A DNA stretch of 64,000 bases, from positions 13,173,158 to 13,237,157 of the forward strand of contig NC_133659.1 of NCBI RefSeq assembly GCF_037893015.1. Direction: 5' to 3'. Origin of the DNA: Macrotis lagotis (Eukaryota; Chordata; Mammalia; Peramelemorphia; Peramelidae). Under the pieces are notes generated by a model that searched no databases, was not told the origin of the DNA, and saw nothing but the letters and a program-made list of their open reading frames with translations. The translations under genes and the position numbers were made by a program. Numbering within the stretch: position 1 is the stretch's first letter; each line of letters begins with the position of its first letter. This document shows, one piece after another, positions 6,267 to 51,500 of this stretch.

Positions 6267-6374
6267 CTACCAACTGAAGTCATCCCCTCTCCCAAATACA
6301 AAGAAGAAGCCTTGAATGGTGAGAAAAATGACCGCGTTGCCCGCCAACACCAGGCCGCAAGCTCCCCATTTGAT
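6267..6374 (-). CDS. LEPROT: LEPROT coding exon 4 (terminal coding exon)
   Basis: The acceptor TTTCAG precedes 6374. The exon begins [13 protein letters not shown], the fourth membrane segment, and ends GRGDDFSW followed by TAG at 6269-6267. The usual family end is FSWEQW, so the protein stops three residues early; the next codons are CAG CAG TAG. The stop is read directly from the sequence. Whether it is species-wide or a sequencing or individual variant cannot be told here. The 3' UTR continues below 6267, and I could not place its end. Confidence 0.95.
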
Positions 6375-9300: not shown

Positions 9301-12300
9301 ACTGGGGAATGGCTTAGCACACTGTGGTCTGTGTGTGTCAGGGAACACTATTGTTCTATTAGAAACCAGGAGGGATGGGAATCCAGGGAAGCCTGGAAGG
9401 ATTTGCATGAACTGATGCTGAGGGAGATGAGCAGAACCAGAAGAACACTGTCCACCCTAACAGCAACATGGGGGCGATGTTCAACCTTGATGGACTTGCT
9501 CTCTCCATCAGTGCAACAATCAGGGACAACTTGGGGCTGTCTGCAGTGGAGAATACAATCTGTAGCCAGAGAAAGAACTGTGGAGTCTGAACAAAGACAA
9601 AGGACTATTCACTTTAATTTAGGGAAAAAACTGCTCTCTCACTGTCTGATCTTGCTATCTCTTATACTTGTTTCTTCCTTAAGGATAGGATTTCTCTTTC
9701 ATCATACACAATCTGGACCCATGTATACCATGGAAACAATGTAAAGACTGGCTAAATTGCCTTCTGTGGAGGATGGGGGGGAGGGAAGTAAGATTAGGGG
9801 AAAAACTGTAAAACTCAAAATAAATAAAATCTTTAAGTACAAAAAAAAGTCATACAGGTTTAAGTGACAGGATTCCAAGCCAGGTCCCATACTTGAAGGG
9901 GCTCTCCTTATACCAAGCTCCCAACCAATCACAGGCTTGGGCATGACCTCACACATAGCTGGTGACACCACCCAAGGTATCTCTTACCACAGAAACTCTT
10001 GCAAGAATGATGGGAAGTCCAAAGGCAGACACAACAATCCCCGTTGTGAAAAAGTACGCCAGTTCCTGACAGGCACTGCTAGAAGCATCCGAGTCATCTG
10101 TGACTCTCTTGGCAATGAAGTAAGGGATGGGGGAGATCACGTGAAACATCAATACAAATAGAGGCCAGTATACTCTGTCAGGGAAGGCAGAGGAAAAACA
10201 ATAAAAAGTCACCACCGGTGGCATCACAAATCCTCGGCATCTCGTCAGATCAAATGGTGTGGAGGCCGCCCAAGATGAACCCCAGACTTGGGCCTGTTCA
10301 AATTAGCTATTTGCTAAGCTTCCCTTCCTGAGACACAGGCATGGAGAGGAAGCTTTGATCATGGAGAAGGAAAGGCCTCTCTTTCAATCTGGTCTTTTTA
10401 ATCTGTGTCACCTCAGATAGTAATTTAACCTTTATCTTCCTCAGTTTTGTCATCTGTGAAATGAGGATAACAGCCTCCCCCTCCCAGGATTGTTGCGAGA
10501 TAATACATGTATCACGTTTTGCAAATGTTGACGGGCTCTATAAAAATGAAAACATTGCTAAATAATTATCCTAGATGTATGATTGTGTAACTCCCTTACA
10601 ATAAATTCAAGAGGCTGCCTATTTCCCCTAGGACCCAATACAGCCTCCCCTGTCTGGCACGTAGAACCCTTCATGTCCAAGCCTCAGCCTACCTTCCCAG
10701 GCTTCTTTAAGGTTATTTCATCTTGGCTCACTCAACAGTCTAGACCAAGGGTGGGGAACCTTTTTTTTTACCCTTAGGGTCATTTGGATATTTATAGCAT
10801 CATTCACAGGCTATACAAAATTATCACTTTAAAAATAAGCTTGTTATATTTGGTCAAACATTTAATTAATTCACCCCTAAAAACATTCCTGAATTTATTG
10901 TATTTCAAGTTCCACCTGCAGTTGCTATGGCAGTGCAGACCCAAATAATTCGGGGGGCCTTATATGACCAGAGGGGCAGAGGCAAACTAGCCTTCCAGTC
11001 CTTCCTCATACCCTCTCCAACCTCCAGGGTCACCAAGGCTTGGGAGACATTCCTTCCTGGTCTTTGCTTCTTAAAACCCCCTACTTTCCATCAAAGCTTT
11101 TCTCAGGTTCAGAGAGACTATGTGAAATTTTTCCTGATCCCCTCCCATCCCTACAAAAATGACCTTGTGTCTACTTTGTATGGGCTTAGAAGAGTATATG
11201 ATGTCTTCTTTGAAAGCATGTTAACTGTTTCATTTTTGTTTCTGTATCCTCAGGAACTAGGAGAGTGTCTGATATAGTATTAAAACGCAACAAGAATCCA
11301 TTTCTGAGGTTGTGACCTCAACAATAATGGCTTTCAATTCCATTCAATCTAACCATCATTTGTTAAGTAACTTTCTAGAAGGCCCCGTGCTCAATTCTGC
11401 AAAATTATTCCTGCCTTCTGGGAACTTATAGTCTCCTGAAGGCTAAAAAAATATTTAGATTAATGAATACAAAGTAATTCAAATTAGGAAGCTGGTATTA
11501 TCAACTGAGAGAATGAGAAAAGACTTTATGGAAGGGGAGCTCCCCCTAGGAAAAGATGACCACCTGAAATCTCATCATCCAGCACCACTGATTCAGCTGT
11601 GGATATTCAACAACCTTCTCAACTCCCTCAGCTACCTCTGACTGGAGGACTGGAGGGATGAAGCAAGAAATTCCTCCCAAACCTTCCTTGATATTGAAGG
11701 CTCAGACTCTCAGAACTTCCCTGGCCTACACTGCCAGACTGGTGAGTCCGTGTGTCCACCTTCTCACCTGCTGCTGAGAGTGAACCGCCCCCCCCATCAC
11801 CCAACTTCCCAGCTCAGGAACCAAAATCATATCAGTACGACCACTGCTACTAGGAGGGGTTCAACCAAATGTACCTCTAGATTCAGTTCCCATAGAGTCT
11901 TCCCCTACAACAACCTAAGTCCCCTGAGGACAGATTGTATCACTCTTACTACAGTTGTATCTTCAGAAAATAGTGCAGTAAATCCATACTAATGGATTCA
12001 TTCATTCATTTTCACTCATTTTCATTCATTAATTCCTGCTTGCAAAGCCTGCTCTCAAACTCTGAGAGCATGCTACTTTTCTCTGGATAATAAAATACTA
12101 AAAAAACCACTTACCAAACCCATGACATCTTTCATATATGGGGATTATGCTCTGAATTAGATGCCTCAGAGAAGTTTGTTTTAAGGAGCAGTGATGATTT
12201 ATCTTTAGGCATCCAGTTTTCATTAACAGGGATGGAGAGGTGAGGTTACAGCACTTAAGAGAACCATATAGGGTTCCTTGTCTTACAATTATTTGCGATA

Positions 12301-12553: not shown

Positions 12554-15500
12554 AGTCACATGGATGGCGAGCAGGAGTACTAGTATAAGTCAAAGCCAGA
12601 GACCCAGAATCTCTTCCAATTCTGACTGTTCTTCACATATAAAACTCCAGACTCCCAGCCTTTGCACTGGCTGTTCCCTATGCCTAGAATGCCCTCCTTA
12701 CCTTTCTCAACTCCATGCCTCATTTTCCTTCAACTCTGTTCAAATCCCGCCTTTAGCAGATAGCCTTTCCTAGACCCTTCCCTCTTAGAGGACCTTCCAT
12801 CTAGTGTAGATGTATTTTCTTTGTCCTGAGCTATTTATGCACTACCTTCCCCACTAGAATGTGAGCTCCTGGAGGACAGCCAGGTTTTGCTTTTCTTTGA
12901 AGCCCAGCCCTTGGCACAATGCCTCTTTAGCTTGTTTGCTAACTGACATCTCTAAGATGGGTAGTGGGAGGGAGAGCAGACTGCTCCCTGGGGTCCCCTT
13001 TGCCTCTTCATCCTAAGAGCTTAGATACAAATGGATCTCACAATGTCAGCCAATTAAGCTAAGTGACCCAGACCCCGCTGGTAGTTTTGAGGTATCTGAC
13101 AGAGAAAAGCTGGAGAACAGAGGAGAAGGCTTACTGAAGGGCAAGGACAACTTACCCGTAGTCCTCCAGGGCACATCCCAGCATAAGGAAAGTCAGTCCC
13201 ACCACTCCACTGAAGGACAAAAGGACAAGAGCTGTGGAGAGAAGAGGAAAGAAAGGTTGAGTTTGTGAGTCTCTGATTGTGTTTCATTGTTTTAGGATGG
13301 GTCTTTCAGAACATTGATCTAGAAGTGGGCAAAAACTCAGAAGCCATCAAGTCCTGCCCTTTCTCTTGGCAGATGAGGAAACTGAGGGCCAGGGAGGTTC
13401 AGTCATTTGCCCAAAGGTCACACATTCCTCCTCAAAGATGGGCAAGCTTCTTCATCAACTGCCCCCAGGTCTGAAAACTCTCATTCCTCATCTCAGTCTC
13501 ATATATAGGCAAAGCTATCTAAAAATGTTGTGCGCTCCTTTGGAATCAGTTCCCCATCCCTGGAGGTCTTTAACTGATCCCTGGATGATCACCACCAGAG
13601 AGGGAGCTTGTAGTAGGATATATTAATGCCCCCAAAACTTCCCAGCTCTGTAATTCCAAGCAGGTTTTCTAAATAGTCCCTTCTCAGTCTTCCTTTCTAT
13701 ACAATGGGGATAGAGTTGGCAGGAGAGCTATAACTGAGCTCTTGGTCAAACTAGAAGACTCCTGAGAAACTCTCACATTCTAAGATTCTCTTAAAACCTT
13801 CCCATTTCTGTACCTCAATTTCCTCAATTTTAAATTGGGGTGGTACGATGAAGAGATGCTAGATTTTGAATTCACACTCAGGTGTGAATCCTCTCCAGCC
13901 ATTCCCTTGCTGTCTGACCCTGGGCAGTCACTTCAACTTTCATAACTATACTTCCTCATCTGTAAAATGGGACTAGCCCCTACCTCCCAAGGCAGGAGGA
14001 TCAAATAAGCCTGTTTCTGTGAAGGGTTTCATAAACTTTAAAGGCCAAGCTCAATGCTATCATTAATTAGATGCTTTTTAGCTCAAAATCAATGATCCCG
14101 AAGTATACTGAATACAGCAAGTGCTTAATGTGTGTGCTGCCAGCTGAGTCAATGAGAAAGTTTCTTCTAACCTTAATAAAAGCTTTCAACAGACTACATT
14201 TTCCTTTGCTTTTCAGATCTTTCTTTTATACTAATATAGTTATATATGAAATCAGTATTCTTGTTTTGTTTGGAAAAGACAAAGGTTTATATTTTCTGAT
14301 TCGTTTTTCCTTTTGCAATTTGACATGATTTTGTTAGTGAAAGGGGCTGGATCTCTGGTTTCACAGGCATAAGGAAGTCTCAGATAAAGAAACTCTTTCT
14401 ACCAAGACAGCTAGCACCTGCTCTGTAACTAAATGATTTGTTCCAGATCACATGGCCGCTAGGTTTCCAAGGCAGGACTTGAAACCAGGGCTACCTGCTT
14501 CCAAAGCTGGCTGTCTGTCCATCAATGATACCAAATTGAGCTTGCTGTATTCTAAAAAATAAATAAATAAATTTTTTTTAAAGAGTAAAATTATTGGATT
14601 TTTAAAAATTTATCCAGGTTTTGGAAAGACTTGCATGGATTGATGCTGAATGAAATGAGCAGAACCAGAAGACCATTATACATACTAACAACATGGGGTG
14701 ATGATCAACCATGATAGACTTGTTCCTTTCAGCAGTACAATAATCAAAGACAATTTTAAGGGACTTGTGAGGGAAAATATCATCCATATCCAACGAGCGA
14801 ACAGTGGAATTTAAATGAAGACCAAAGCTGATAATCTTCAATTTTTAAAAATTGTCAATGTATTATGTAAATTTGTTCTCTCTGATGTTTTCTTTCTTCC
14901 TTTTAGATCTGATTCTTTTCTCACAATACGTTCAATTTTTGATCTATGGTTGCAAATGTAAAACCTAGATCAGATTGCTTTTGGGAAGGAGAAAAATAGC
15001 CAAAGAAAAAATGATTGGTTAAAAACTACCATTGGGTGTAATTAGAAAAACAAATAAAATATTTATCTAATTTAAAAAAAAATTAGCCAGGCTTGTGGAG
15101 ATCCTCCAGGGCAATGGTATCAAACTTAAATAGAAATGAGCCAACCACACATAATGATCCATATCTGTCTCATCCTGAATTAGAACATTAGTCTAACATT
15201 AGTAACATTATCTAAGCTCCATTGTATTTTTTATTTATTTGGTTAAACATTTCCCAATTACATTTTAATCTGTTTGGGCCACCAGCCAGCAGCACTGTGT
15301 CTGACACCTCTGATCTAGGTCACCCTTCTATTTTACATTTAAGGAACTTGAGACTTAGAAAAGGCTTCCTTACTTAGTGACTCTCTCTAGTTGCCAACTG
15401 TTACATTTGAAAATTAATGTAAATTGAGAGATAATGATTTGGGCATAATCAATTCATTAGTTAAACTAGCAGTAACCAATAAATTGGGTCAATTGAGTCA

Positions 15501-18500: not shown

Positions 18501-19489
18501 CTCCACCAGCACCGATAGCAGCCCTCGAGGGCCAGAATCCATTGTCCAATAATCATCTTGTGATAAATTTCCTAGAATTGGGCTCTATGATCTATGAGCT
18601 CATCAACAGGCTTCTAATTATAGAACCTTGTATATGATCATGTATGATCACGTATGTAAAGAAATAGCTTTAAGCGAGCTCTCCATCTCATCATCTTGGG
18701 TGGTTTTAGGAAGAGCAGCACGTGGGACAGGTTTGGGGTCCAAAATACTCCCGGTCCCCAGTTCTTTGGGACCCCCTTTGGGTTTTTCCCCGGCAGTGGG
18801 ACTGAAGTGGTTTGCCATTTCCTTCATTTTACAGGTGAGGAAACTGAGGCAGGCAGGAAGCCGTGACTTGCCCAGGGTCGCACCGCCAGTAAGTGTCTGC
18901 GGCTGGATTGAAGCACCCGCCTCGCAGAGGCTCAGCCGGAGCCAGGCCTGGCCTGCCTCGGTTTCCTCACCTGTAAAGTGCGCCGGGGCAGGGCAGGCCA
19001 GCACCACCGCAGGGTCCTGGGGGTCTGGCGTGATTAAGACAAAGGCGGGTGTGCGGGTCACTCCTGGGGTGACAACTCTAAAGCTCTGACGCTGCAGGGC
19101 GGGCCCCCCCCATGGGACCCCAGACTCAGCCTTAGAACCCGGCCAGCCCAACCCCTTCATTTTACAGACAAGGAAACTGAGGCCAGGGCCGGGGAACGCC
19201 CCCCCTCCGGGGCCGGGCCGGCTCCCCCTCTCCACCCCCCAGGTCTCTGGGGCTCTGGGCCCCGGGGTGGCCTGTCTCCCGGGCGTGCAGGGCCCCCCAA
19301 GTTCCGGGAAGGAGGGGCCCCGAGGGCTGAAGGGTCGTGTCCCGGGGGGGCAGGACGTGGGAGAGGAAGGAGCGATGGCGGGGGGGCGCAGGGGGGCTCC
19401 GGGGCCCGGCGGAGCGGCGGCCCGGGCCGGGCCCCCCGCGGGGGTCTCCGGGGGTCGGCGGCGCGGAGGGTACCTTTAATCCCGGCCAT
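6267..19489 (-). CDS. LEPROT: LEPROT (leptin receptor overlapping transcript), complete coding region in four exons
   Basis: The coding exons are 19474-19489, 13156-13231, 9988-10174 and 6267-6374 (16+76+187+108 nt = 387 nt, 128 codons plus stop). All introns are GT-AG and the phases join cleanly. The product is a small Vps55-family protein with four hydrophobic segments at roughly residues 6-26, 32-52, 69-91 and 97-121. In mammals it resides in Golgi and endosomes and lowers surface levels of leptin and growth-hormone receptors; this is family knowledge, not visible here. Diagnostic stretches are [42 protein letters not shown] and [13 protein letters not shown], which fit LEPROT better than LEPROTL1. 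The protein ends in FSW, three residues short of the usual FSWEQW end (131 aa in human). LEPR normally shares this promoter and 5' region and would continue below position 1. Confidence 0.96.
6850..7090 (+). mobile_element. LINE 3' UTR fragment (L1-like)
   Basis: Shows the terminal part of the same element as at 3475-4190: tgattcttcttttaggacat, ttgtacatggacaatgtacg, aaaatgaatgttgaaaacga and the A-rich end. Confidence 0.65.
7890..8035 (+). mobile_element. L2-type LINE 3' end
   Basis: Resembles the L2 tail: ctccctaagggctggagtgg, then tatccctagtatctgacaca and taatatttattggattg. Strongly diverged. Confidence 0.5.
8986..9012. repeat. (GGAT)n microsatellite
   Basis: Short imperfect tetranucleotide run with GGATGAAT and GGCT interruptions. 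Confidence 0.8.
9245..9850 (+). mobile_element. LINE 3' end (L1-like, second subfamily)
   Basis: Landmarks: ggcaaagaactggaaattga, cagggaacactattgttcta, gatttgcatgaactgatgct, gagatgagcagaaccagaag, then ctcaaaataaataaaatct. Nearly the same subfamily as the copy at 36.4-37.15 kb, and closer to it than to the copies at 3.5 and 14.6 kb. The 137-codon ORF here is a chance frame through this tail. Confidence 0.7.
9988..10174 (-). CDS. LEPROT: LEPROT coding exon 3
   Basis: This 187-nt exon completes Gly31 and encodes residues 32-93. It includes [22 protein letters not shown] and [12 protein letters not shown], the second and third membrane segments and the polar loop between them. The acceptor is TGACAG before 10174 and the donor is GTAAG at 9987. 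A 1.4-kb LINE- and SINE-rich stretch lies just below it. Confidence 0.97.
10395..10560 (+). mobile_element. MIR SINE, sense copy
   Basis: cagttttgtcatctgtgaaa, gaggataacagcctccccct, then ttgcgagataatacatgtat match the MIR core and 3' part. Confidence 0.65.
12493..12554. repeat. compound (TC)n(AC)n microsatellite
   Basis: About 36 bp of TC followed by about 26 bp of CA, with further imperfect TC upstream from about 12448. Confidence 0.95.
12640..12920 (+). mobile_element. L2 LINE 3' end
   Basis: ctttgcactggctgttccct, gcctagaatgccctccttac, then ctagaatgtgagctcctgga and cccttggcacaatgcctct are the classic L2 3' end. Confidence 0.75.
13156..13231 (-). CDS. LEPROT: LEPROT coding exon 2
   Basis: This 76-nt exon encodes residues 6-30 and two bases of Gly31, ending GCALEDY. 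It carries the first transmembrane segment. A CAG acceptor precedes 13231, and the donor at 13155 is GTAAG. Its phase fits exon 1 (1 nt carried in) and exon 3 (2 nt carried out). Confidence 0.95.
13300..13440 (-). mobile_element. MIR/THER-type SINE, antisense copy
   Basis: ggcagatgaggaaactgagg, gccagggaggttcagtcatt, then gcccaaaggtcacacattcc. It lies 70 bp upstream of LEPROT exon 2. Confidence 0.65.
13860..14060 (+). mobile_element. MIR SINE, sense copy
   Basis: ccctgggcagtcacttcaac, cttcctcatctgtaaaatgg, then aggatcaaataagcctgttt. Confidence 0.7.
14605..15080 (+). mobile_element. LINE 3' end (L1-like)
   Basis: ggaaagacttgcatggattg, aatgagcagaaccagaagac, ggtgatgatcaaccatgata, then an A-rich end near 15080. 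5' truncated relative to the copy at 3.5 kb. Confidence 0.65.
15484..15600 (-). mobile_element. SINE with BovB/RTE-like tail, antisense fragment
   Basis: agtcatgtctgactgtgatc, then ggttttcttggcaaagagtg and ctttgccattcctttctcc. This tail resembles the 3' end of RTE/BovB LINEs, which probably mobilised the family; that link is family knowledge. Confidence 0.55.
15600..17240. other. LEPROT intron stretch without recognised repeats
   Basis: I see no coding exon, microsatellite or nameable repeat here. It is AT-rich and ordinary. Unrecognised old repeats are possible. Confidence 0.5.
17240..17370 (+). mobile_element. L2-type LINE 3' end
   Basis: gtttcagctccctaagggga, gggattgtactttgcttctt, then ggtattcccagagctta. 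The young SINE at 17371 directly follows and truncates it. Confidence 0.5.
17371..17503 (-). mobile_element. marsupial tRNA-headed SINE, head-truncated
   Basis: T-rich end, gcaaggcaaacagggttaag, ggccacgcagctaggtcatt, gatttgaacccaggtcctcc. The final head portion (ctctatccactgcgccac) is missing. Confidence 0.85.
18780..18960 (-). mobile_element. SINE with BovB/RTE-like tail, antisense, inside the CpG island
   Basis: gggactgaagtggtttgcca, tttccttcattttacaggtg, aggaaactgaggcaggcagg, then GC-shifted body. Its CpG density is unusually high for a SINE of this type, so it seems to have adopted island composition or been kept unmethylated. Confidence 0.6.
19474..19489 (-). CDS. LEPROT: LEPROT coding exon 1 (start codon exon)
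   Basis: On the minus strand the ATG at 19489-19487 reads MAGIK plus one base of the next codon, and a GT donor (GTACCC) follows at 19473. The N-terminus MAG(V/I)K is typical of LEPROT. The 16-nt coding part continues upstream into 5' UTR inside the CpG island. No competing in-frame start exists downstream, because the next codons are in exon 2. Confidence 0.92.
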
Positions 19490-19504
19490 GTCTCCGGAGC
19501 GGGA

Positions 19505-19560
19505 GCCCCAGCTTCCGGCTTCCTGCTGCAGCCCCGGGCCGCCCCTGCCCCCCGCCCCGG
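19505..19560 (-). promoter_or_regulatory. likely LEPROT/LEPR core promoter or 5' UTR with ETS-type site
   Basis: Directly upstream of the ATG the minus strand carries GAAGCCGGAAGC (ETS core CCGGAAG at about 19511-19518), followed by GC-rich sequence. CpG-island promoters without a TATA box often use ETS or Sp1-type sites near the start. No TATA box was seen. The transcription start itself cannot be fixed from sequence. Confidence 0.4.
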
Positions 19561-19727
19561 CCCGGCCCGGCCCCCGAGGCGGAGCCCACCCCCGCGGGTC
19601 CGCCCGACACCCCGCCCGCCCCGGGGCCCGGCCCCCGCCGCACCCCGCTGCCAGCTGGCCCCCGGGGCCCGGCCCGGAGCCCCCCGCTAGGGCCCCGCCT
19701 CGCCGCCGCAGCCCTCCTCTTCCGTCC

Positions 19728-19901
19728 GGCCCCGGCCCCGGCCCCGGCCCCGGCCCCGGCCCCGGCCCCGGCCCCGGCCCCGGCCCCGGCCCCGGCCCCG
19801 GCCCCGGCCCCGGCCCCGGCCCCGGCCCCGGCCCCGGCCCCGGCCCCGGCCCCGGCCCCGGCCCCGGCCCCGGCCCCGGCCCCGGCCCCGGCCCCGGCCC
19901 C
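19728..19901 (-). repeat. (GGGGCC)29 hexanucleotide array, LEPROT/LEPR sense strand
   Basis: The plus strand reads GGCCCC repeated 29 times without interruption (174 bp), which is GGGGCC in the direction of LEPROT transcription. The flanks are imperfect GC-rich relatives of the unit. It lies 239-412 bp upstream of the LEPROT ATG. The same hexanucleotide unit is expanded in human C9orf72, where it forms G-quadruplexes and dipeptide-repeat proteins. Tandem arrays of this kind are prone to copy-number error in assemblies, so 29 is a minimum-trust count. Confidence 0.97.
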
Positions 19902-20369
19902 CTCCCGCCCGGGCCCCGCCGCCCCCCGGCCCCGGCCCCCTCCCGCCCGGGCCCGTACCTGGCCGGGGTCCTGAAGCCTCCGCCGGGCCCGGGGTCGGCG
20001 CCGGAGCCTCGGGCCGCCGCCTGCCCCCTCTCCCCGCCTCATCGGGACCCCCGAGATCCCGCCGCCCGGGGGAGGCCGGGGCCTCCCGCCGCCTCCCGCC
20101 CCCTCCCCGGCCCCGGCGGCCCAATCCGCGCGCAGGCCCGCCCGGCCCCTCCCCCCGCCCCGGGGCGCAGAGCGACCCCCACCGGGCCGGGGCCGGGGGG
20201 AGGAGCCGCGAGCCCGGGCCGGGGGGAGCCACCGGACTAGCTGGGGGCCCGGGGGCATCCCCGGGAGCCCCGAAAAGCGCACCCACAGGCGGAGTCCTTC
20301 ACCCCGGGGGGGGGGGGCAGCTCCGACATTGCGGATTGTGCGGGTCCCTGACCCGGGGGGCCTTTAAGG

Positions 20370-20405
20370 GGCGCATTTTACAGATGAAGAAACTGAGTCC
20401 GGGTG
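20370..20405 (-). mobile_element. MIR-core fragment in CpG island
   Basis: gcattttacagatgaagaaa ctgag core flanked on both sides by pure GC-rich island sequence. Similar cores occur near 18825, 19155 and 20912. Confidence 0.5.
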
Positions 20406-22350
20406 GCCCGCGCCATGTGTAGCCGGGGCATCGGAACGCGGCAGTCCTTCCCGCCGCCCCTCCCGGAGGCTTCAGCCTCCTCCCCAGGACTCCCCTAAGG
20501 GCCCCACACGCCCCCTCCCCAGCCCGGGGGAACAGGCCCCTCCAGCCCCGCCCCCACCGTGTGGAGCCTCCGAAGAAGGCCCGGCCCGGCCCGGCCCCGC
20601 GCCCTCCCCCTCTCCCGAAGAAGCCCAGGGCCCAGGGCAGGGCAAGCCTGCGCTGGCATCGGCTGCCCGCCCACCGCACCGTGATGGAGAACATGGGCCT
20701 TCCCGCAAGGCCTCCGCTTCGATGTAAGCCGAGTGACCTTCTGCTCTGAAGACAACGGCGCCCACCGCCCTGGCCCACCCGACCCGGCCAGGCCTCGAGG
20801 CCTCCATGCAAGACCCCCCGGCCCCTGTTGAGTCATGTCCAGCCCCGGGACCCCAACCGGGGCTTCCTTGGGAAAGGTACTAGAGCAGCTGCCGGGTCCC
20901 CTCTCCAACCCATTTTACAGATGAGGAAACTGAGACAGATAGGGTGCAGAGACTTGTCCGAGGTCAAACTGTGAGTAAACCTCTGAGGCTGGATTTGAAA
21001 TCTGGTCTCCAGATCCAGAAAGCTCTGTCCAGGATCCCGGCTATCTGCCTCAAGGAATTGTGTGACCTCAGGCAATGCACATGGGCCTCATTTGTCTGCT
21101 TGTTTTCATATCTTGTTGAATTTGTTTTGTACCCCTCTAGATGTTGGACCTGAGTCAGTGAAGGGGCCCTCTCCATCTCTACTCATAGAACTTCAACCAA
21201 TTCCATTCCCCAGGATTCAAGTCCATGTTCTCCCATAGATTTCTAGATGCTCATAGATGCCCCACAAGGAGCTTCCCAAAGGGCTACAAGACTTCCTCCT
21301 CTCCATGATTTTACATTTCCTAGGCAACCGGGAAGTAGGGGTGTGTATGCCTCATCCTTTGTTTTGGCAACACTTCCTTTACTGAAAACGCTTGTATCAG
21401 GTAGTACCCAGCTTACTCTTCAGGAAGCAGCTGACAATGCAAGAAAGCACCCGGGGATGTGACCTACAAAGAGATGAGAGATCTGAAGTCACCGGCCAAG
21501 AGATGAAAGTTCAGTCCAGGAGACATAATAATTTTTTTTTTTGGATCTAACCCTGTGATTTCTCTGTTGTATATATGGGAACCAAGCCCCCCCCCCCCCA
21601 AAAAAAAAGCTGCTTCTATTGCTCCGAAATTTATAATCCTACAGTTGTGTCCAGCTATTTGGGGCACTGAGAAATGAAGGGATTTGCCCAAGATCACACA
21701 GTCAGAAGATGCCAGAGGCTATGACTTGAACCCAAGGCTTCAGGACTCTGAGGCTGGTTTGCTGACCACTAAGCCAAACTACCTTTCTGGTATATGAACT
21801 TCATGATTCCATATGCCCAGTGGTCCTTTTTTCTTTCCTTCTTCATGTGACATTCTGCTAATTTCTAATCCTGCCATAGGAACCAATTCCCTTCTTGTTT
21901 ACTTCCTTTACCTCCACACAGGCAGAAATCCCACCCCTATCTGGGATGCACCTTCTATCATTCTCTTGGGAAAAATCTCATTTTCTTCACAGCGTCCCTC
22001 AGGGGCTACCGCCTTCCTGAGACTGCTGCTTTCTGCCATTGTCAGCCCTCTCCCTTATATTAGTTTTCATTAATTTATATATTCTGTAAACATTTAATAA
22101 ACGTATTCTGAATTCAACTGGATCCTTACTCTGCCAACTCTTAAAAAGACATGATATTCATTCCAGCCTCAGTGACTTCTACATGCTGACCAAATAATCA
22201 CTTGCTAATCGTCACAGTGTCCACAATCTGGTGCCAACTGTCTCCCCTTGTGGGTCTCCCGTGCTTGTCAGACAGGATTACTTGCCATGTCATTTTTCAT
22301 CTGTCTCAGACCAAGTCTGGCAGTAGAAGACGGCCGAATCAGCATTAACA

Positions 22351-27411: not shown

Positions 27412-27513
27412 TTAATACAAGGGCTTTTGGCCTTGATTTTCAAATTCTGACCAGGCATCATTCAGCTCCATGAAGATCATCTTGGCGTATTGTTCATACG
27501 GCTCCCCAGTAGC
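27412..27513 (-). CDS. DNAJC6: DNAJC6 terminal coding exon: end of J domain
   Basis: The acceptor TTCCAG precedes 27513. The exon reads [20 protein letters not shown] then [13 protein letters not shown] and TAA at 27414-27412. This is the invariant auxilin C-terminus: the last J-domain helix. The reading continues in phase 0 from the HPD exon. Confidence 0.98.
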
Positions 27514-30500
27514 CTGGAAGGAAACAAGAAAAGCAGACAATGAGGAAGCTTTTAATGAAGGAAAGCTGTCAGATTTCCTCTCCACACTTTTGCTTTTGGG
27601 GAAGTCATCTAGGTAGCTTAGTGGAAACAGTGTAGAGTTAGAAGTCACAAAGATATGGATTAAAATCCTTCTTCATAGAGGGACTATGTGATACCAATAA
27701 AATTATATCACCTCTCCTAGCTTCAGTTTCCTCATTTATAAAATGGATAATAAAAGGATGTCTCGGAGTTGTGAGAATCAGATGGAATGCTCTGTAAACA
27801 ACCTTAAGTGAAAAAAATAAATTTATATAACATTATTAAAAGAATAACAACTTTATAAAATAGATTTGCAGTTTCATGTGCAATCATCTTCTCCCCTTTT
27901 ACTATGTTATGGAATATGCTTGTTTTATTCCAAAAATTTAAAGAAACTTTAAAAGACATAATAATTATTAGCATTATTGTTAAAGTAATTTTTTTTGCAA
28001 GGCAAATGGGGTTAAGTGGCTTGCCCAAGGCCACACAGCTAGGTAATTATTAAGTGTCTGAGCCTGGATTTGAACCCAGGTACTCCTGACTCCAGGGCTG
28101 GTGTTTTATCTACTGCACCACCTAGCTGCCACTAAAGTAATTGTTAATAATGATGTTATAATGAATTTCTAACTTGAAATTTACATTCCCTCAGAAGAAT
28201 TCCAAACTCTAGATTATAATCAAAAGACCAATGAAAAGTTTAGACCTGCCAATAGCAATCTTCATACTTGGGGCAATTCAATTCAAATCAAATATTTATT
28301 AACCACTTAAGAGTGCTAGAAACATTCTTCTTGAGAGGGTACAAGTAACTTGAAAAATGACCTTCGGTTCACTGGGGGAGAAGGGGAGAGGAAAACGGTA
28401 TCCTCAGGATATCATAAGGGTGTTCTGTAGAAGTTGTGAAAAAAAAAAAGGTGGGAAGCAGGGCCATGGGGGAGGCAAAACATCCAAGGTAGAGGAAGAT
28501 ATCACTTGGTACTTTCTCTTTTTTTAAAAAATGTATTGTGATTTCATCACTATAAGGATCTCAGGATCTCCCAATGAGGAAATGCCCTTAATCAAGGCAG
28601 ACTTCAAGTTGCCTAGAACACAGAGAGATGGAGTGATTGGCCCAGGACTACAAGGATAAGAAATGTCAGAGGCAGAACTTAGCACCAAGTTGTCCTGACT
28701 CCAAGACTCTTCATCTACCTTGTTATACTGCTTCAATAGTATCTTATTATAACTGAATTATCCTTACTAGCTAGGTGACACAAGTAGTGGCTAGTAGTCA
28801 GACTTCTAGCCTGACCATTCTCGTATGTAGATGAGGCAGTGGATAGATAGCACACTGGACTTGGATGAGTTCAAATCCTATTTCAGAACAATTGTGTGAC
28901 CTTGAGCAAATCCCTTGCCTCTTCCAGACTCAGGGTACCTTATCTGAAAAATAAGAGTACCTTTCTCACGGACAGCTGTGGGAACCAAATGGAATACCAA
29001 GTGGAAAGTGTTTGTAAGAATGCTAGTTCCTGTTGCTATCGATGTTGTTATTAATACTTTTTCATCTATTTGAGTTCATTAAATGAAGATGCTTCTTGTG
29101 AGTTCATCTGCTGGAACCAGTTCCTTGACGAGGCACAATGGGATGAAACTTCAGTAGATGCTTTATAAGGCCTGCTCCTTGGGTCTTACCTACTGCCATC
29201 CTATTCAAACCGGATGGTTCTTAGGTCAGTAATGTGGTCAGTCTGTTATTCGTGCTGCAATCAAGTGCTTTGTAATGTTTCCTCTTCTTCTCTTTCTGAA
29301 TAGAGGCAGTACCTGTCCTGTTTGTGCAGCCCTGGACATTTCATTCCACCTCTTACTGATTTAGGCAATTCTGAGACTGGAGGATGCAGACCGCCATTTC
29401 CAAACTGCTTTCTTATCCAAAAATTCTGAATCAATCCCTATTCCTATACCTGAATGATGCAGATGTTAGCATCTGCCCGTGGATAAATCAATGAGAAGCT
29501 GACATTTATAAGCCCCTGGAAAGCAAGGGCTATTTTGTTTTAACTTTGGTTTCCAGCACCCAATACAGTAAATAAACATTTGTGGGTTGAATGAAAATTA
29601 TTTTGAAAGTTTTGAATTCAACCCCATTGATTCACTGCAGTTTGGGGAAGTCAATCAATTAGTTAACAAACATTGATTAAACAGACACCATAAGTCTGAT
29701 GTTATACTAGAGACTGGGGGGTATAATGACATAATGATATAGGCACAGTCCTCAAGAGACTACATTCTACTGGAATAGACAACATATGTATAAAGAAATA
29801 CATACAATTTTTTTTAGGTTTTTGCAAGGCAAATGGGGTCATGTGGCTTGCCCAAGGCCACACAGCTAGGTAATTATTAAGCATCTGAGACTGGATTTGA
29901 ATCCAGGTACTCCTGACTCCAGGGCCAGTGCTTTATCCACTATGCCACCTAGCTACCCCAATACATACAAAATTTATACAAGGTTTTGGGTTCAAGGTTC
30001 AAGGTGCTGGCTGAAGAGAGGAAGGAGGGAACATTATCCATTAGTGCTGTGTGATAGGTACTGTGCTAAGCGCCTCTTAGAGATCACATGATGGAAGATC
30101 TAACTCTTTCAGCTCTAGAGGTCTTTCCCTGTGCTACCTCTACTGATGAGTTGTAAACCCTTAGATTTCAGTTGACCCACTCCCCAATATTGGTGTCTCA
30201 TCTTTCGAATGTATTTTGCTCTCCAGGGTTTAGCACATATTAAGTTCTCAATGGTTTTTTGATTTCTTTACTTAAACACTTTCTTATTCATTCATTCATT
30301 TTTTCATTCATTCATCAAAATTTGCAAGGAGTGGTGTCAGATACTTGGGATCCAAAGATAACGAGAAAATCAAAAGTGGGCACATTCCCAGGAGAATGTA
30401 TCCCTACTTCCTCCAACTCTACTCACTTTGTCTGGATGTACCACGAGCACGGCCCGCCTGTAGACCTTCTTCACCTGCTCAGGAGTGACCAGGTCGGCCA

Positions 30501-33500
30501 TGCCCACGGGCTTCCATTTGGTCTCACCCGCCCACAACACCGTGTGCATGGTCGACAGCAGTGCCCGGATGTTTCTCTCCTTTCCTTCAATCCATTCCAG
30601 GATCTGTGAAGGAAGAAACAGAAATCAGCATCCATCCTTTGCACAATGAGAATCTTCTACTACATGGAAAGAAGCTAAATTCAGGAGCATTATTTGTTGT
30701 GGTGAAGCATCAAGGCACTTCCATAGGACAATGTAACTCGGTAACCTGGGAATGAGTGAAAGCAGAGAGGGGAAGACAATACTGGACTCGATATCAGAAA
30801 AATACTATCACTTATGGTGGGCAAGTTACGCAACCACTTGTACCCTCTTTTCCTATCTTTAAAAATCATATGACCTAAACAAGAATTACCCAGAATAGAC
30901 AAACTTGGCTGCGTTGCAATCTGTACCACTGGAAGGAGCTTCCTAAATGTATCAAGGATCTGAGTACTGAGAGCTTATTTCAGAAGTCTCTGAGGTCCAA
31001 ATGAAAAAATATGATGATGAGTTAGTATCATACAGTGAGAAACATTTTACCATATTTTCTGAACCTTGCAGAGATAGAAGAAAAGACCTGAAGTCTGGAA
31101 AAACTTAATTCAAATCCCACCTTGGACATCTACTTAGGTATGTGAACCAAGAAAAGTCATTGTCTGTTGAAGCCTCAGTTTCCTCTACTGGGTTTTTTTT
31201 TGGCAAGGTGATGGGGTTAAAGTGACCAAGGTCACACAGCTAGGTCATTATTAAGTGTCTGAGGCCTTATTTGAACTCAGGTCCCTCTGACTTAAGGGCT
31301 GGTGCTCTATTCACTGCACCACCTAGCTGCCCCTCCTTTCCATTTAATGAGGGGACTAGACTCAAAGGCCTCACAAGGACTTTTGCATATCAGCTTCTTG
31401 GAATGTAAATCTCTGACCACAGGTTCCTATTAACAACCCTATAAAATGAAATGAGATTGGAAATAGAGGTAAGAAACAGATTGATATACCTGCCTATCAA
31501 GTTTATATTTCATTCCAGAAGTAATAAGGACATAAAAATAAAAAAAAATCAAGAAAATTCCAGCCCCTAAGCAACTTATAATCTAATGGAAGAAATAGCA
31601 CATATAAGGGAAATGGGTTGAATTACTACAACTATGGAGTAGGAATCAATATTCCTATTTTCCAGATAGGACTTCAATGACTTGTCTAGTGTTGATTCTA
31701 TACTTAGCAAGGAAAGGATCAGGACTCATATCCAGAGCTTCTATTGTTCACACATCCAGATGCTACATCAAGCTGTTGTCCTATGTATGCAAATCAATCT
31801 ATAAACATTGAAAGTAGTCTATTAATATAGTCCATTGTCGGTGATTACAAGCATCTGCTCTCAACATGTGGATCCTATATGAAATATAGATATTTATATA
31901 TTATATATTTATTATATTATATATTAGTTATATTTATATTTATTATGGATATTATATATATATATATATATATATATCTCCAAGGTCATAAAGATACAAA
32001 GTGTCAGAGGTGAACTTAAACCCAGGTATTTTGATTCCAGAATTAATATACTACTCTTTCCATTATGACATCATGCTACTACGATCAGTAAAAGTCTCAG
32101 GATCTCAAACCAAGAAGACCTTCAATCAACACCCCACTCCAATTTCTGACAGGTGGCCACCCAGCCTTTCCTTGAAGATTTCAAGGTTGGGGGAAGGGGG
32201 GAGAAACACATTAAATCAACCATTACCTGGTAACAATGACCCACCTTCTTAATACTGATCCTCTCCCAATGTTTCTGTATTACTCTGAGTCAGGGAGCTC
32301 AACAGTCTCCAAAAAATCATGAATTGCATGAATGGAGAAGTTTGTGGAAGGTATGAGCTGACTACAATGTCCTACAAATAAGGAACCATGAGGAACTGTA
32401 ATAAGGGATGAAAAGAAATGGATACCGGAAAAAAAAGCTGGTCAGATAGTGAGTGTGAGGATGTAATAGACTGGAAGCTTGAATAACCTCCTCACAAGGA
32501 CTAGAATGGTAGGTCCCTAGAACTTTGGATGGACTTTCCACTGAAGGACTTCTGGGGAAAATGGCTGAGAATTCCACTGGATGCACAGTAAGCTTAATCC
32601 TTGAGGAGAATTCCCCAAGACATCTATTCAAGGATCTGGGTTCTCTCTCAGAAGATGCCAGTTCTCACCTCTGTATCCCAGTCACCAAGATGAAATTTCC
32701 CATGAATGATAAGACACCTGAGCTTGCAAGGGTGAAATTTCTTAGTGAGATAGAAGTGGCTATTTGTCTTCTTATAATGGCTATTTGCATGATAACAAAA
32801 TCATTTTCTTAAGCCTACTTTGCAATTTATTTTTCTTATATGACCTGGAGGTATAGGTGTTTGTCACTCATTCAGTCTCCCTTGCAAATCATTTAATTTT
32901 CTAAGGCCTTCAATTTCTCCCTCAATTAGGAGAAGATTAGACTCTGTATGTTGATAACTAATCTAAGAGTCTATAATCAAAGGGTAATGTTCCCAGGGCA
33001 GAATTAGTCTTTTCCAGAGCAATTTTCCTCTCTGAAACTCAAAATTGAGCTATTACTTCTTACCATGCCCTAAGCAGAAGAAAAACAAAACTGAGAATCT
33101 GAGGTTTATAGACAAATAATATTGGAATCTGGACATAGGTAAATCTGTGGAATGTTTGATTAAAATCATGAACCAGATGGAGAGTGAGAGATAGTCACCT
33201 AGCTGAACTCTCTCAACATTCCTCTCCAAACAACTTTAAAATAACACCTCAAATAGAATTTTGTATGATAGAGCCAACAAAAGAATGAACACCTCAAATA
33301 GAATTTGGTATGATAGAGCCAACAAAAGAATGAACACCTCAAATAGAATTTGGTATGATAGAGCCAACAAAAGAATGGAGTGATAACTTTCCAACATAAG
33401 ACAAGTTAGGAGATCAGCAGGAAAGGCATGTGGCACTAGAGTGGGGGCTGTCTCAGAGCACACACAGATCTGGCACCAATAGGGGTCCTTGGTAATGGTC

Positions 33501-42500: not shown

Positions 42501-45500
42501 GATCAATCCTGATGGACAGGCATTGTGTTAGTTACTGATCCTATATTGGTGTGCTTTGTGGAAAATTCAGCTCCATTTGTACCTACTGAAAGCACTTTCT
42601 CTTTTGGACAATCGTCTCAAAAATACAAAAGAGATTGAACACCACATCTGAGGATGATTACCTGATTTACTCGGCCAGTCCCAACCTCCTGAAACATCTG
42701 GCTGGATGGAAACAGTGGGGGTGCTGGAAGCTGCCAAGGAAAAAACACAGCACATCATCATTTCCTTAGCTGGCTTTTTAAAAGTCCATGAGTAGTACAA
42801 GAACTGAAAATTTACCAATTCATGCCTCATGCCTTTGCCAGGTCCACAAGCAAGTGATTGATTTGGCCTCAAGCAAGAAAGAAATAGGCACTTGTCTGCC
42901 CAGCTCAGGTGCCCAACCTGTTCCTTTGAAACAGACTTACCCAGTGGAGTAAAGAAAGGCGATCCAAAAGAACTATTTGAAAACTGCTAAATTAAGACAA
43001 TTAAAATGATCGCAAAAGTTGGTTCAAAACCCATTGGTTGATGATGAAAGTGCAAAATGACATGTTAAAATTAAAAAAGGCAGTCAGACTTTTTCTGAGT
43101 AGAGAATAAACTACTATAGAGTAAGACTGCTCACATTACTCAAGTGAGTTCATGTATGTAAGGTGAATTTAGAGTGAATGGATGCCAAGTGATATTGATG
43201 TATTTCAAGCATCCTATAAGTCAGCAGCTGCTATTGCTACTGCTTCCATCATCAGTTTGATGATAATTAGTTCAAATGTCTTGGGATTACACTTTATGGA
43301 AGGTTTTAATGATGATAATATTGATGATAATAACATGGGGATTATATCTTATGGACAGTTTTAATGATGATAATGATGATAATAATATGGGATCACATTT
43401 TATGGAGGGTTTTATTGATGATGATAATGATAATATAAATATGGGGATTACATTTTATGGACAATTTTAATGATGATAATGATGATAATAATAATATGGG
43501 AATCACTTATTATGGAGAATTTTTAATGATGATGACAATAATGATATGGGGATTACATTTTATGAACAGTTTTAATGATGATAATAATACTAATATGGGA
43601 TCACATTTTATGGAGGGCTTTGATGATGATGATGATGATGATATAAATATGGGGATTACATTTTATGGACAATTTTAATGATGATAATGATGATAATAAT
43701 AATCATATGGGAATCACATATTATGGAGAATTTTTAATGATGATGACAATAATGATATGGGGATTACATTTTCTGAACAGTTTTAATGATGATAGTGATG
43801 ATAAAGATATGAGATCACATTTTATGTAGAGTTTTATTAATGATAATACTAATAAGTTTATATTATATAGAGGGTTTTAGGGTTAATAGTTCTGATAATA
43901 AAAATAGTAACAGCAATAATATCAATTCATATCTATATAGTAGTTTGTGATTTGCCATGCATTTGACATCTATCATTTCATCTTATTATTACAACAAGCC
44001 CATGAGTTGTAAGTGCTATTAGGAGGAAATTCAGACAAAGAAAGGTTAAGTGACTTGCTCAAAGTCATAGAGCTAGTAATAATACTAATTTTTATGATTA
44101 CTATTATTATTATTATATGGCACTTGGAATTTTCCAAAGTGCTTTGGAAGAGACTTCATTTGATCCTCACCACAACCTTGGGAGGTGGAAGCAATTATTC
44201 TTTTTTGTTTGTTTCTTTCTTGCTTTTTGCAAGGCATTGAGGTTAAGTCATGTCCAAAGTCACACAGTTAGGTAATTATTAAGGGTCTGAGGCTGAATTT
44301 GAACTCAGGTCCTTCTACCTCCAGGTCTAGTGCTCTATCTACTATGCCACCTAGCTGCCCCAGGTGCAATTATGCTTTCCATTTTGCGATGAGGAAACCG
44401 AGCCTAGATAGGATAGATGCTTTTCCCATGGTCACAAAGATGCTAAATTTGTGAGGTAAAATTATAATCCAGCTTTTCTTGAGTTCACATTCAACCCTCC
44501 AGGCTGATCACCTTGTCTTTCCATATTTGGGTGTGTATGTGATGAAACACAATTTAATCAGAATTCATTAAGAAGTAATCTTATTCATTTCAACTTGGGA
44601 CAGACAATTTGAATAAGATTCTTTTCCCCCTCCCCCCACCTTCATCCTGTTCCACCTACAGAACTGGGAAGCAATTCCTCAGTGCCAAAGGAGCCCTGCC
44701 CATCTATTTGGGGACATTGAGGGCTTGGAAATGATCAGCACTGGGTTCCTGGAGGCCCAAGTCCCTTCCTCAACAAGCAGAGGGCTTTTCATTGTTTCTG
44801 GATTTGTAGCTCCTTTCATATATAAAATGCTTAATACATGTCTGATTAATTCATTGGGAATTAAGAACATGTAAAAGCTAAGCCTCAAAGGCCCAATCTC
44901 TATCCCCCAAGATCCTCACACTCTAATACACTTTAACTTTAGCACAAACAGGACCACATTGCTTACTTAACACTATCATGTCCAAACCATTAGCAAGAAT
45001 TTATGTAGCCAAATGTCAGATACTATGATAGACAGCAGAGATAACCAGACAAAGGAGAAACCGTATCTGCCCTCAAAGAGCTTACAATCTAACCAGGGAG
45101 AGGACAGTGCAAACATAGCCATTTACCAGTAGATCCAATGTGACAAGCGATGAATCCAGCTGGTATTACTAAGGATGTTACTGACCTTCCCTGACCAATA
45201 GTGGTGCCATATTGTACAGATTGCCAGGTCTGGAGTCACAAAGACGCATCTCTGAGTTCAAATGTGATCTCAGACAGTTAGTGACCTTGTTATGACCTTG
45301 GGCAAGTCAAGGAACCCTATTTGCCTCACTTTACTCATTTATAAAATGAGTTGTATATAAAAAAAGGGCCAAGTACTCAAGTGCCAAAAAAACCCCAAAT
45401 GGAGTCACAAAGAATTGGACATGACTGAACAACAACAAAACAATCACAGATAGAAGTTTCTTTATCTTTCTTAGAGGGGTAGAAGAATTAGCATTTATTA

Positions 45501-48500: not shown

Positions 48501-51500
48501 CCTACATATTTTATATCATTATTATTATTAAGAGGGGTTGGTATGTTTTTCCAAACTGTCAAAAGAGTCCATATTATAAGAAAAAGTATGAATTATTATG
48601 AAAAAATTATGAATCTATCCTCTTGACTTTAAATATGGAGGTAGGTGGCATAATGGATTGATCAAAATGTTCATTCAGTTTTCAGCCATCTCTAACTTTG
48701 CATGGCCCCATTTGAGATTTTCTTGGCAAAGATACTGAAGTGGTTTGCCATTTCCTTCTTCAATTCCTTTTACAGATGAGGAAACTGAGGCAACAGGGTG
48801 CTATGACTGGCCCAGGGTCACACAGCTACTAAGTGTCTGGGACTAGATTTGAATTCAGGGAGATGAGACTTCCTGGCTCCAGGCCCAGCAGTTCAGGTAG
48901 TTTTGTAATGCTATGCAAGTCACTTAACCTCTGTCTGCCTCAGTTTCCTCATCTATGAAACAGGATCAATAACAGCACCTCCCTCCCAGGGTTATTGTGA
49001 GGATCAAATGAGACAACAATTGCAAAGCATTTAGCACATAGTATGTGATATATAAATGTTAGGTCTTATTATTATAATTCCTCAAATATGCATTTTTCTT
49101 CTGAATCCCTGCCCTTGAAATGAGCGGCAAGGATAGTCCTATAAATGCTGGGTATTTTGTGTATGACTTTTTAATCCATAGAGCCCTCTAAAATGACAGA
49201 AAGTGGTGCTGCAAAACAAGCTTGCAGAATTGGATATACAATTATTACCCCATTTTACAGACAAGGAAATTGAGGTTTTGAGATGTTAATTTACTTGCCT
49301 AGAATTACAAATAATGACCAAGGACCAAAATTTCTATATAATTGAATGAATAACAATAGGCAGACCAATAATCAACCCCAAATCCAGGGGAACAGTTCCC
49401 TTTTACTAAACATGTTGATGTTACACATTTGACTATTAATTTAATTTTTTTTCTCAAATACTGAGCAAAAATTCTCCTCAGCTCTCAGATGAGTTCCACT
49501 GGGGGAAAGCAGGAAATAGAGACATATTTTGTCACTCTCTGGCTTTTGGGAGACCTGACAGAAAAAGTTATGGGAAAAAAATGAAAAGAAAAAACATCTG
49601 GATGATTTAGTTTGTACTGAGACTCAGATGCAACATTGGTTAGCATCTAACTTCAAATCTAAATTCCACCAAATTAACCTTTATCAACTTATTCCATTGT
49701 TTTCAGCTTTTTCTGTATTTTCCAAATAGAACATATTTTATAAATGTTCATTACAATTAATTAAATGGATGGGAATTCAACCTTTGACCTTGACTTGGTG
49801 ATTTAGTAGGATGATCAGCACCATATTCTAGCCTAAGTCCATGGTCATTAAGTTCAACCCACAGATGCATTATATAAACTCCTGCCCACAGGAAATTCAA
49901 TGCAGGTGGAAAAGTGGTCAAATAAATTCCAATTTCAATCTTGATTTAAAATGATATCCACATCCAGAGAAAGAAATGATGGAATCTGAATGCAGACTGA
50001 ACCATGCTATTTTCATTTTCTTTGTTTTTTAATGTTTATTTTCCTTTTGTTTTATTTCCTCTTTTACAATATGACTAATGTCGCACTATCTTTAACATGA
50101 TTGCAGGTGTATAAACTATATCAGATTATTTGGATTTTTAGAGGAAAGGGAAGGAGGAGGGAGAGGGAAAAAGTTTAAATTCAAAAACTTATAAAAATGA
50201 ATGTTAAAAAAATAGTCAAAGGATATGAAAGGGCAGGTTTCAATTGAAGGAATGCAAGCAACTGAGGCATAAAGTAATAGGAATTTAAAAAAAAAACATT
50301 TCAAATTCTTCCTCACAACCAGAATGACAAGCAGGACAAGAGAAAAATTGACCATTGATGGAGAAACTGTGTTGTGGAAAACTCTTGGTGGGCTCAGAAT
50401 GTAGTTCAATCCTTCTGGAAAGTAACTTGGAACCATAATCCAGAAATTGTGAAGTTGTTTATAACCAGTTAGATTATTATTATATTAGGTTTATACTACA
50501 AAAAAGTCAGAGAGAGGGAAAACACTCATACATATAAAGGTATATTGGCTCCATGTCATCCATGTGTTCCCAGCCTAGGCCGCTTATGGCTATCTTTCCT
50601 TTCACTCCTTCCTTCAGGCATCTTGCCTAAAACTTGGTCAGTCACCCGGTCCTCAAGTCCCTTATAAGTAGCTTATTATCTTTTCAGTAAAAAAAAAAAA
50701 AAGGCTTAATCCATGAGTTTCGCAGGCTTGTGAAATAAATCCTGAGCTATTTCAAAAAGAAAAGAAGTCAATTGAGTCTAGCAGTGTGTGTTACAATCAA
50801 CAACCATGATGCCCAACCATGGGGAAAGATGTGTTATATTCTCTCATCTCAGGAACCAAGAAGGATTTTTGCAATTAATCCAAATCCTTTTACCTTTTAG
50901 GTAAAATTTATGTTATGATCATCATTGAATCTAATGTTCTTTTAGTTTAGCTTTCTTTATCCAGCATGACTTCATACATATCCTCCAATGCTATTCTGAA
51001 TTGCTGAAATTCCATATTTCTTACAACATGGTTGTATTCTATTACATTTTTTTGGTTTATCTCCCAGTGGATGAGCACCTACTTCTTATTTTGGGGATTT
51101 TAATTTTTGCTGCCATACAAAAAATTGATATGCTGAATATTTCAAAATGAAACAAACCTTTTTTTATAAAGGGAAAGGGAAAAAATGGTCCCAGTAATGA
51201 TAATGATGACTCACCAAGTGGCCTTCTGGTCAAACAACATTTTACTGAGACTAACTCAAATGTCACTGAGATAAGAGCACTGAGTTCATGTGAATGAATT
51301 CATCAGTTATTTTTCTTGCATAGTTTTGAATTATTTTTCAAAAGCAATGAACCAATTCATAGTTTTACCAACACTATATAAGTGTTTAGGTCTTTCCAAC
51401 ATAGAGTCTAAACAGAAACCATAGTCAAAAACTCATAAAGGTAGACTCTTTGCTAGCCACTTTACAATTCCTCTCAAAATTACATTCATTATTCAAGGCA

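Follow-up and report, generated by a model that had tools for sequence, protein, structure and literature searches.

A pure 29-unit GGGGCC array upstream of the LEPROT start codon, read as a probable member of the G/C-rich promoter microsatellites

Expansion of the hexanucleotide GGGGCC in human C9orf72 causes ALS and frontotemporal dementia, and a long array of the same unit ahead of another gene raises the question of whether it should be read as a counterpart of the disease repeat or as a microsatellite of a GC-rich promoter. The array considered here lies in the window, i.e., the whole 64-kb stretch of Macrotis lagotis DNA that was analysed. An earlier note had described it as 29 uninterrupted GGCCCC units at 19728-19901 (GGGGCC in the sense of LEPROT), located 239-412 bp upstream of the LEPROT ATG and inside a CpG island, and all of these descriptions hold. 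The answer that we favour, with slightly better than even confidence, places it among the G/C-rich promoter microsatellites: it would have grown by slippage from a short seed and would exert a modest, length-dependent damping of the LEPROT promoter. On this best reading the class is already known, and the present member is unusually long and pure and sits just below the C9orf72 disease range; the disease analogy is taken as a lead only. Provided that its length is genuine and widespread in the species, it offers a second gene with a naturally occurring GGGGCC array, close in length to the threshold of human disease, and would allow testing whether instability, methylation, and quadruplex effects follow the unit alone or the C9orf72 locus. 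It is also a possible cis-regulatory variant for the gene pair that controls leptin signalling.

The array, its gene, and its promoter surroundings

The features that define the locus are the following:

19726..19901, minus strand: perfect period-6 run of 176 bp, with 29 complete units at 19728-19901 and 29 CpGs
19401..20800, no strand assigned: CpG island around LEPROT exon 1, from GC content and observed/expected CpG
19474..19489, minus strand: coding part of LEPROT exon 1, with the ATG at 19489 and the donor GT next to it
13156..13231, minus strand: LEPROT exon 2, from protein match and splice sites
9988..10174, minus strand: LEPROT exon 3, from protein match and splice sites
6267..6374, minus strand: coding part of LEPROT exon 4, with the stop, from protein match and splice sites
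27415..30594, minus strand: J-domain exons of DNAJC6 (auxilin) at 30421-30594 and 27415-27516, from a protein query

The four LEPROT exons join through GT donors and AG acceptors into an open protein of 128 aa, which belongs to the Vps55 family (Pfam, E=1.3e-36) and shares 113 of its 128 residues with human LEPROT (88.3%) versus 90 of 128 with human LEPROTL1 (70.3%); the attribution of the gene to LEPROT is thereby upheld. LEPROTL1 was considered as a candidate on account of the N-terminus MAGIK encoded by exon 1, which resembles that of LEPROTL1, and was ruled out, given that exons 2-4 and the joined protein are closer to LEPROT. At the opposite end, the LEPROT frame in 6267-6374 terminates in DFSW-stop, three codons before the human end (128 aa versus 131 aa).

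Upstream of LEPROT and on the same strand, the two DNAJC6-like exons match the J-domain query with E values of 4e-34 and 1.6e-19; Pfam assigns DnaJ to the first piece with E=0.00085, below the curated cut-off, and nothing to the second. The order DNAJC6-LEPROT is also that of human chromosome 1, and on the human map the LEPR coding exons would fall beyond the low end of the window. An N-terminal human LEPR query finds no convincing match to LEPR coding sequence in the 64-kb window (best E 1.6); the link to LEPR therefore relies on synteny together with what is described in human and mouse. The window has 49 ORFs with 100 codons or more, and none of the 10 ORFs scanned among them contains a Pfam family. 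Specifically, the earlier note had assumed a promoter common to LEPROT and LEPR, and this stands insofar as the OB-RGRP (LEPROT) promoter is described as starting both genes in human and mouse; the same source, in the part available, also describes a second LEPR promoter, B219/OB-R, in both species (PMC7325922). An effect of the array on LEPR would therefore be partial, since LEPR has a promoter of its own.

The CpG island (19401-20800), divided into seven bins of 200 bp, has a GC content of 0.705-0.945 and an observed/expected CpG ratio of 0.64-0.83, and the array thus combines two attributes of a G/C-rich promoter microsatellite, a hexameric unit within the 1-6 bp microsatellite range and a position in a CpG island near a gene start, with the distance taken from the ATG. 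Two further elements lie on the gene side of the array:

19719..19725, minus strand: ETS-type site ACGGAAG, directly adjoining the array on its downstream side in gene sense
19512..19518, minus strand: ETS-type site CCGGAAG, which begins 29 bp ahead of the ATG

The former is a possible core-promoter element. GC boxes start at 19558, 19622, 20143, and 20161, and no TATA pattern is found in the 700 bp above the LEPROT ATG. This arrangement, with the ETS-type sites at 19725 and 19518, would favour a transcription start downstream of the array.

Origin and reality of the array

High GC does not account for the array. In simulated islands of 1600 bases, generated by Markov models of orders 1, 2, and 5 on the island with or without the array (1000 islands for each of the six settings), the longest period-6 run is at most 70 bp, and 176 bp is reached in 0 of 1000 islands per setting. 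Including its imperfect part, the repeat extends over 19726-19939 with a period of 6, 36.3 copies, and 92% matches (Tandem Repeats Finder), and the only other tandem of GGCCCC or GGGGCC in the 64-kb window is a pair of units at 19928-19939. This pair belongs to a tandem duplication that adjoins the higher-coordinate end of the array (5' in gene sense), with 31 exact bp at a 38-bp period, a piece of anatomy absent from the earlier note:

19886..19916, no strand assigned: duplication copy 1, 31 bp identical to copy 2, overlapping the array where it begins in gene sense
19924..19954, no strand assigned: duplication copy 2, with two GGCCCC units only (19928-19939), candidate unexpanded seed

Because copy 2 contains just two GGCCCC units, growth of the array from a two-unit seed is suggested, and the simplest history suggested by this layout is that a GC-rich stretch bearing the two-unit seed was locally duplicated and that one copy then expanded, by slippage or by fork stalling. 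Replication stalling is reported at 20 GGGGCC repeats (PMC10870140). Conversely, copy 2 may have reached its two units by contraction or by incomplete copying, in which case the history would run in reverse.

The growth appears to be recent, given the absence of any substitution in the 29 units with their 29 CpGs, and the array would be unmethylated in the germline and probably polymorphic in length. If neutral substitution proceeds at 1e-9 to 4e-9 per site per year, an unchanged tract of 176 bp has P=0.05 at 17 to 4.3 My, a bound that is not firm, as slippage can erase substitutions.

The length in the assembly may be wrong. A real locus with a number of units distorted by basecalling, polishing, or collapse of the GC-rich repeat is an improbable explanation, yet one that has some ground in nanopore data, in which the mismatch rate over 800 GGGGCC units is much above that of the flanks, while over 15 copies it is not (PMC9052667, in part). 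Against an artefact, the 29 units are perfect and without mismatch, the window contains zero N bases, and the contig continues through the open LEPROT exons.

Elsewhere in the window, other repeats are present. A 45-bp minisatellite at 33243-33377 has three near-identical copies with 98% matches, and a degenerate tandem array with units of 55 and 211 bp occupies 43283-43855, in the kilobase of the window with the lowest GC (0.279) and with a skew of G over C of +0.369. Lastly, a 26-base motif occurs in two copies, at 18800-18825 (the query) and at 48733-48758 (1 mismatch), and in none of 100 shuffles; it is a SINE-like signature of the kind seen in marsupial MIR-type SINEs and suggests a marsupial origin.

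Possible effects on the promoter

The coding strand of the array has quadruplex potential, and its reading frames are open, as follows:

19730..19954, minus strand (coding strand): continuous G-quadruplex-type motif (loops 1-7), from a motif scan
19476..20042, minus strand: hypothetical AUG-started ORF of 188 codons, poly-Gly-Ala via the array, from frame analysis

The array has a G4Hunter score of 2.0, and the predicted energy of its RNA is -270.8 kcal/mol when seven consecutive quadruplexes form, versus -140.8 kcal/mol as a hairpin. Nevertheless, quadruplex potential is not peculiar to the array within the island, since nine of the eleven sense-strand quadruplex motifs of the window fall within 19401-20800, that of the array being the longest and the other eight shorter.

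In the favoured reading, the G-rich coding strand would fold into quadruplexes or R-loops beside the core promoter and would cause a modest loss of output from the LEPROT promoter, including the LEPR transcripts that start there, with a size that follows the length of the array. The array probably damps the LEPROT promoter because reporters of the C9orf72 promoter with 9, 17, and 24 units are lower than those with 2 units, with a maximum of -52% at 24, as measured on another gene and on plasmids (PMC3638346, in part); the array would thus behave like GGGGCC in the C9orf72 promoter and not like a toxic expansion. The purity of the array, the two-unit copy, the CpG island, the known class, the reporter damping, the stalling, the length-dependent breakage in yeast, and the quadruplex tract all count for this explanation. 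Conversely, the possible reverse history of the two-unit copy, the source of the reporter data in another gene and in plasmids, the quadruplex potential of the island at large, and the doubt on the assembled length count against it. In addition, the survey of human microsatellites lists CCCCGG downstream of the transcription start only, in the portion available, and the array is measured here relative to the ATG (PMC3566118). Moreover, van der Zee et al. report no lengthening of intermediate C9orf72 alleles of up to 22 units in 20 families, according to the same partly available source as the reporter data (PMC3638346).

The strongest competitor, unlikely but with an appreciable share of the probability, is that the array is an inert passenger: the CpG island would tolerate a neutral GC-rich microsatellite, and neither LEPROT nor LEPR would be measurably affected by it. 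The strong association of G/C-rich repeats with human transcription starts would fit a passenger (PMC3566118, in part), and the open frames leave no coding signal to explain. Specifically, 236 nt separate the array from the ATG, and two of the three sense frames have no stop there; in 20,000 composition-matched sequences simulated for this interval alone, a given frame is open in 0.4997 of the cases, at least two frames in 0.4993, and all three in 0.12475. What argues against mere inertness is that GGGGCC at a similar length halves the C9orf72 reporter promoter (PMC3638346, in part), and that the array, bordered by an ETS-type site, lies less than 0.5 kb from the start codon.

A coding signal from long open frames is ruled out, the openness between the array and the ATG being what base composition predicts, and for this reason the open frames are not counted as evidence of repeat translation. 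This weighs on the reading, quite improbable as a whole, of a transcribed repeat like that of C9orf72, in which the array would lie in the 5' leader or first intron and yield GGGGCC RNA and dipeptide-repeat products. A donor-like CAG|GTA at 19961 would suit such a transcript, as would the six frames, all open throughout the array: the LEPROT frame reads poly-Gly-Pro over it and is open from 20038 past the ATG, and the poly-Gly-Ala ORF overlaps the LEPROT start, ending 14 nt into it. However, the AUG of this ORF at 20042 has a weak context, and the ORF, hypothetical as it is, matters only given a transcription start above 20042, while the ETS-type sites suggest starts downstream of the array. 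In addition, inspection by eye finds no convincing acceptor between the array and the ATG, and 29 units are below the human disease range in the review (PMC11006399, in part).

A further reading is comparably doubtful: the array, at the C9orf72 disease boundary in length and yet the normal allele of the species, would act from the common promoter of LEPROT and LEPR as a length-tunable quadruplex brake on these two genes, which set leptin sensitivity, and, given starts above the array, the dipeptide-repeat product of the AUG-started poly-Gly-Ala upstream ORF that overlaps the LEPROT start would belong to normal physiology and not to disease. Least probable is a selected, lineage-specific regulatory element whose functional length tunes leptin sensitivity, despite the lowering of surface leptin receptor by LEPROT (endospanin 1), which means that promoter tuning could matter (PMC5318964, in part), and despite the growth-associated reduction of promoter activity by a SINE in intron 1 of pig LEPROT (PMC9407865, in part).

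Comparison with known systems

No description of a GGGGCC array at LEPROT is found in the open-access literature covered, as far as the matches listed go. In marsupial-related GGGGCC literature, such an array is absent from titles and abstract starts, and, among the matches listed, the same holds for the topic in leptin-receptor-related GGGGCC literature. In the available part of a review of leptin evolution, the terms 'marsupial' and 'opossum' are absent, with no bearing on the array (PMC5385356), and the available part of a study of the pig LEPR promoter has no bearing on it either (PMC3688923). A megablast of 19700-19950 against phages gives no match, a result of little weight on account of low-complexity filtering.

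Pure GGGGCC arrays of at least 8 units outside eukaryotes amount to 93 stretches (7 viral and 86 prokaryote genomic), with the prokaryote genome collection covering 257 billion bases by its own description. The longest runs have 26 units (L079, Salinispora) and 24 units (L064, Pseudonocardia), and none of the 93 stretches has a run of 29; some runs end at the edge of a stretch or contig (that of L063 starts at base 1), and many of the entries come from draft assemblies, which may drop long arrays. These arrays share purity with that of LEPROT, in unrelated organisms. Since pure GGGGCC arrays arise repeatedly in GC-rich DNA, an origin of the LEPROT array by ordinary slippage is fitting. As a separate observation, the two actinobacterial arrays (7169-7324 in L079 and 4455-4598 in L064) lie in stop-free frames, the longest of 492 and 429 codons, respectively, which read Gly-Pro and Ala-Pro and may be protein-coding.

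The SINE polymorphism of pig LEPROT is the closest case at the gene itself: it is a repeat inserted close to the start of LEPROT, for which repression of the promoter was measured in pig and an association with growth is described (PMC9407865, in part). Unlike the array, it is a retrotransposon in intron 1 rather than a tandem repeat upstream of the ATG.

For C9orf72, the length comparison drawn in the earlier note agrees with the available review table, in which 3-25 units are normal and more than 30 pathogenic (PMC11006399); the array, with 29 units in this assembly, falls short of that threshold of about 30. Another paper gives a wild-type range of 3-30 and reports, in its available part, one GGGGCC in C9orf72 intron 1 of chimpanzee, two non-tandem copies in mouse, and none in gorilla and Fugu (PMC5822839). 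By this account the human array is species-limited, because none of these species has a tandem array. As to instability, yeast GGGGCC tracts of 35-60 units break 6-16 times more often than tracts of 15 (PMC11632612, in part), and human carriers of the C9orf72 expansion more often have short indels in the GC-rich sequence next to the repeat (PMC3638346, in part). The label 'C9orf72-type' given to the array is thus right for the repeat unit and does not extend to the locus, the gene being LEPROT, or to the disease process. The LEPROT array, known here from the sequence of one assembly, belongs to another gene. It lies upstream of the ATG in a CpG island, and the C9orf72 repeat lies in intron 1 or the core promoter, depending on the isoform; the two have in common the identical unit, its orientation relative to the gene, a CpG-rich promoter area, a GC-rich low-complexity flank, and a length near the disease boundary (29 versus more than 30; PMC11006399, in part).

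The G/C-rich microsatellites of mammalian promoters remain the nearest class. The literature covered provides no length statistics for the CCCCGG/CCGGGG promoter class, and the array departs from the class in its 29 pure units, seen in one assembly. In the available part of the survey, CCCCGG/CCGGGG ranks with the microsatellite motifs whose association with nearness to transcription starts in human is most significant (q=2.5e-17, for the side downstream of the start), and the LEPROT array resembles this class in its unit, its CpG island, and its proximity to a gene start (PMC3566118).
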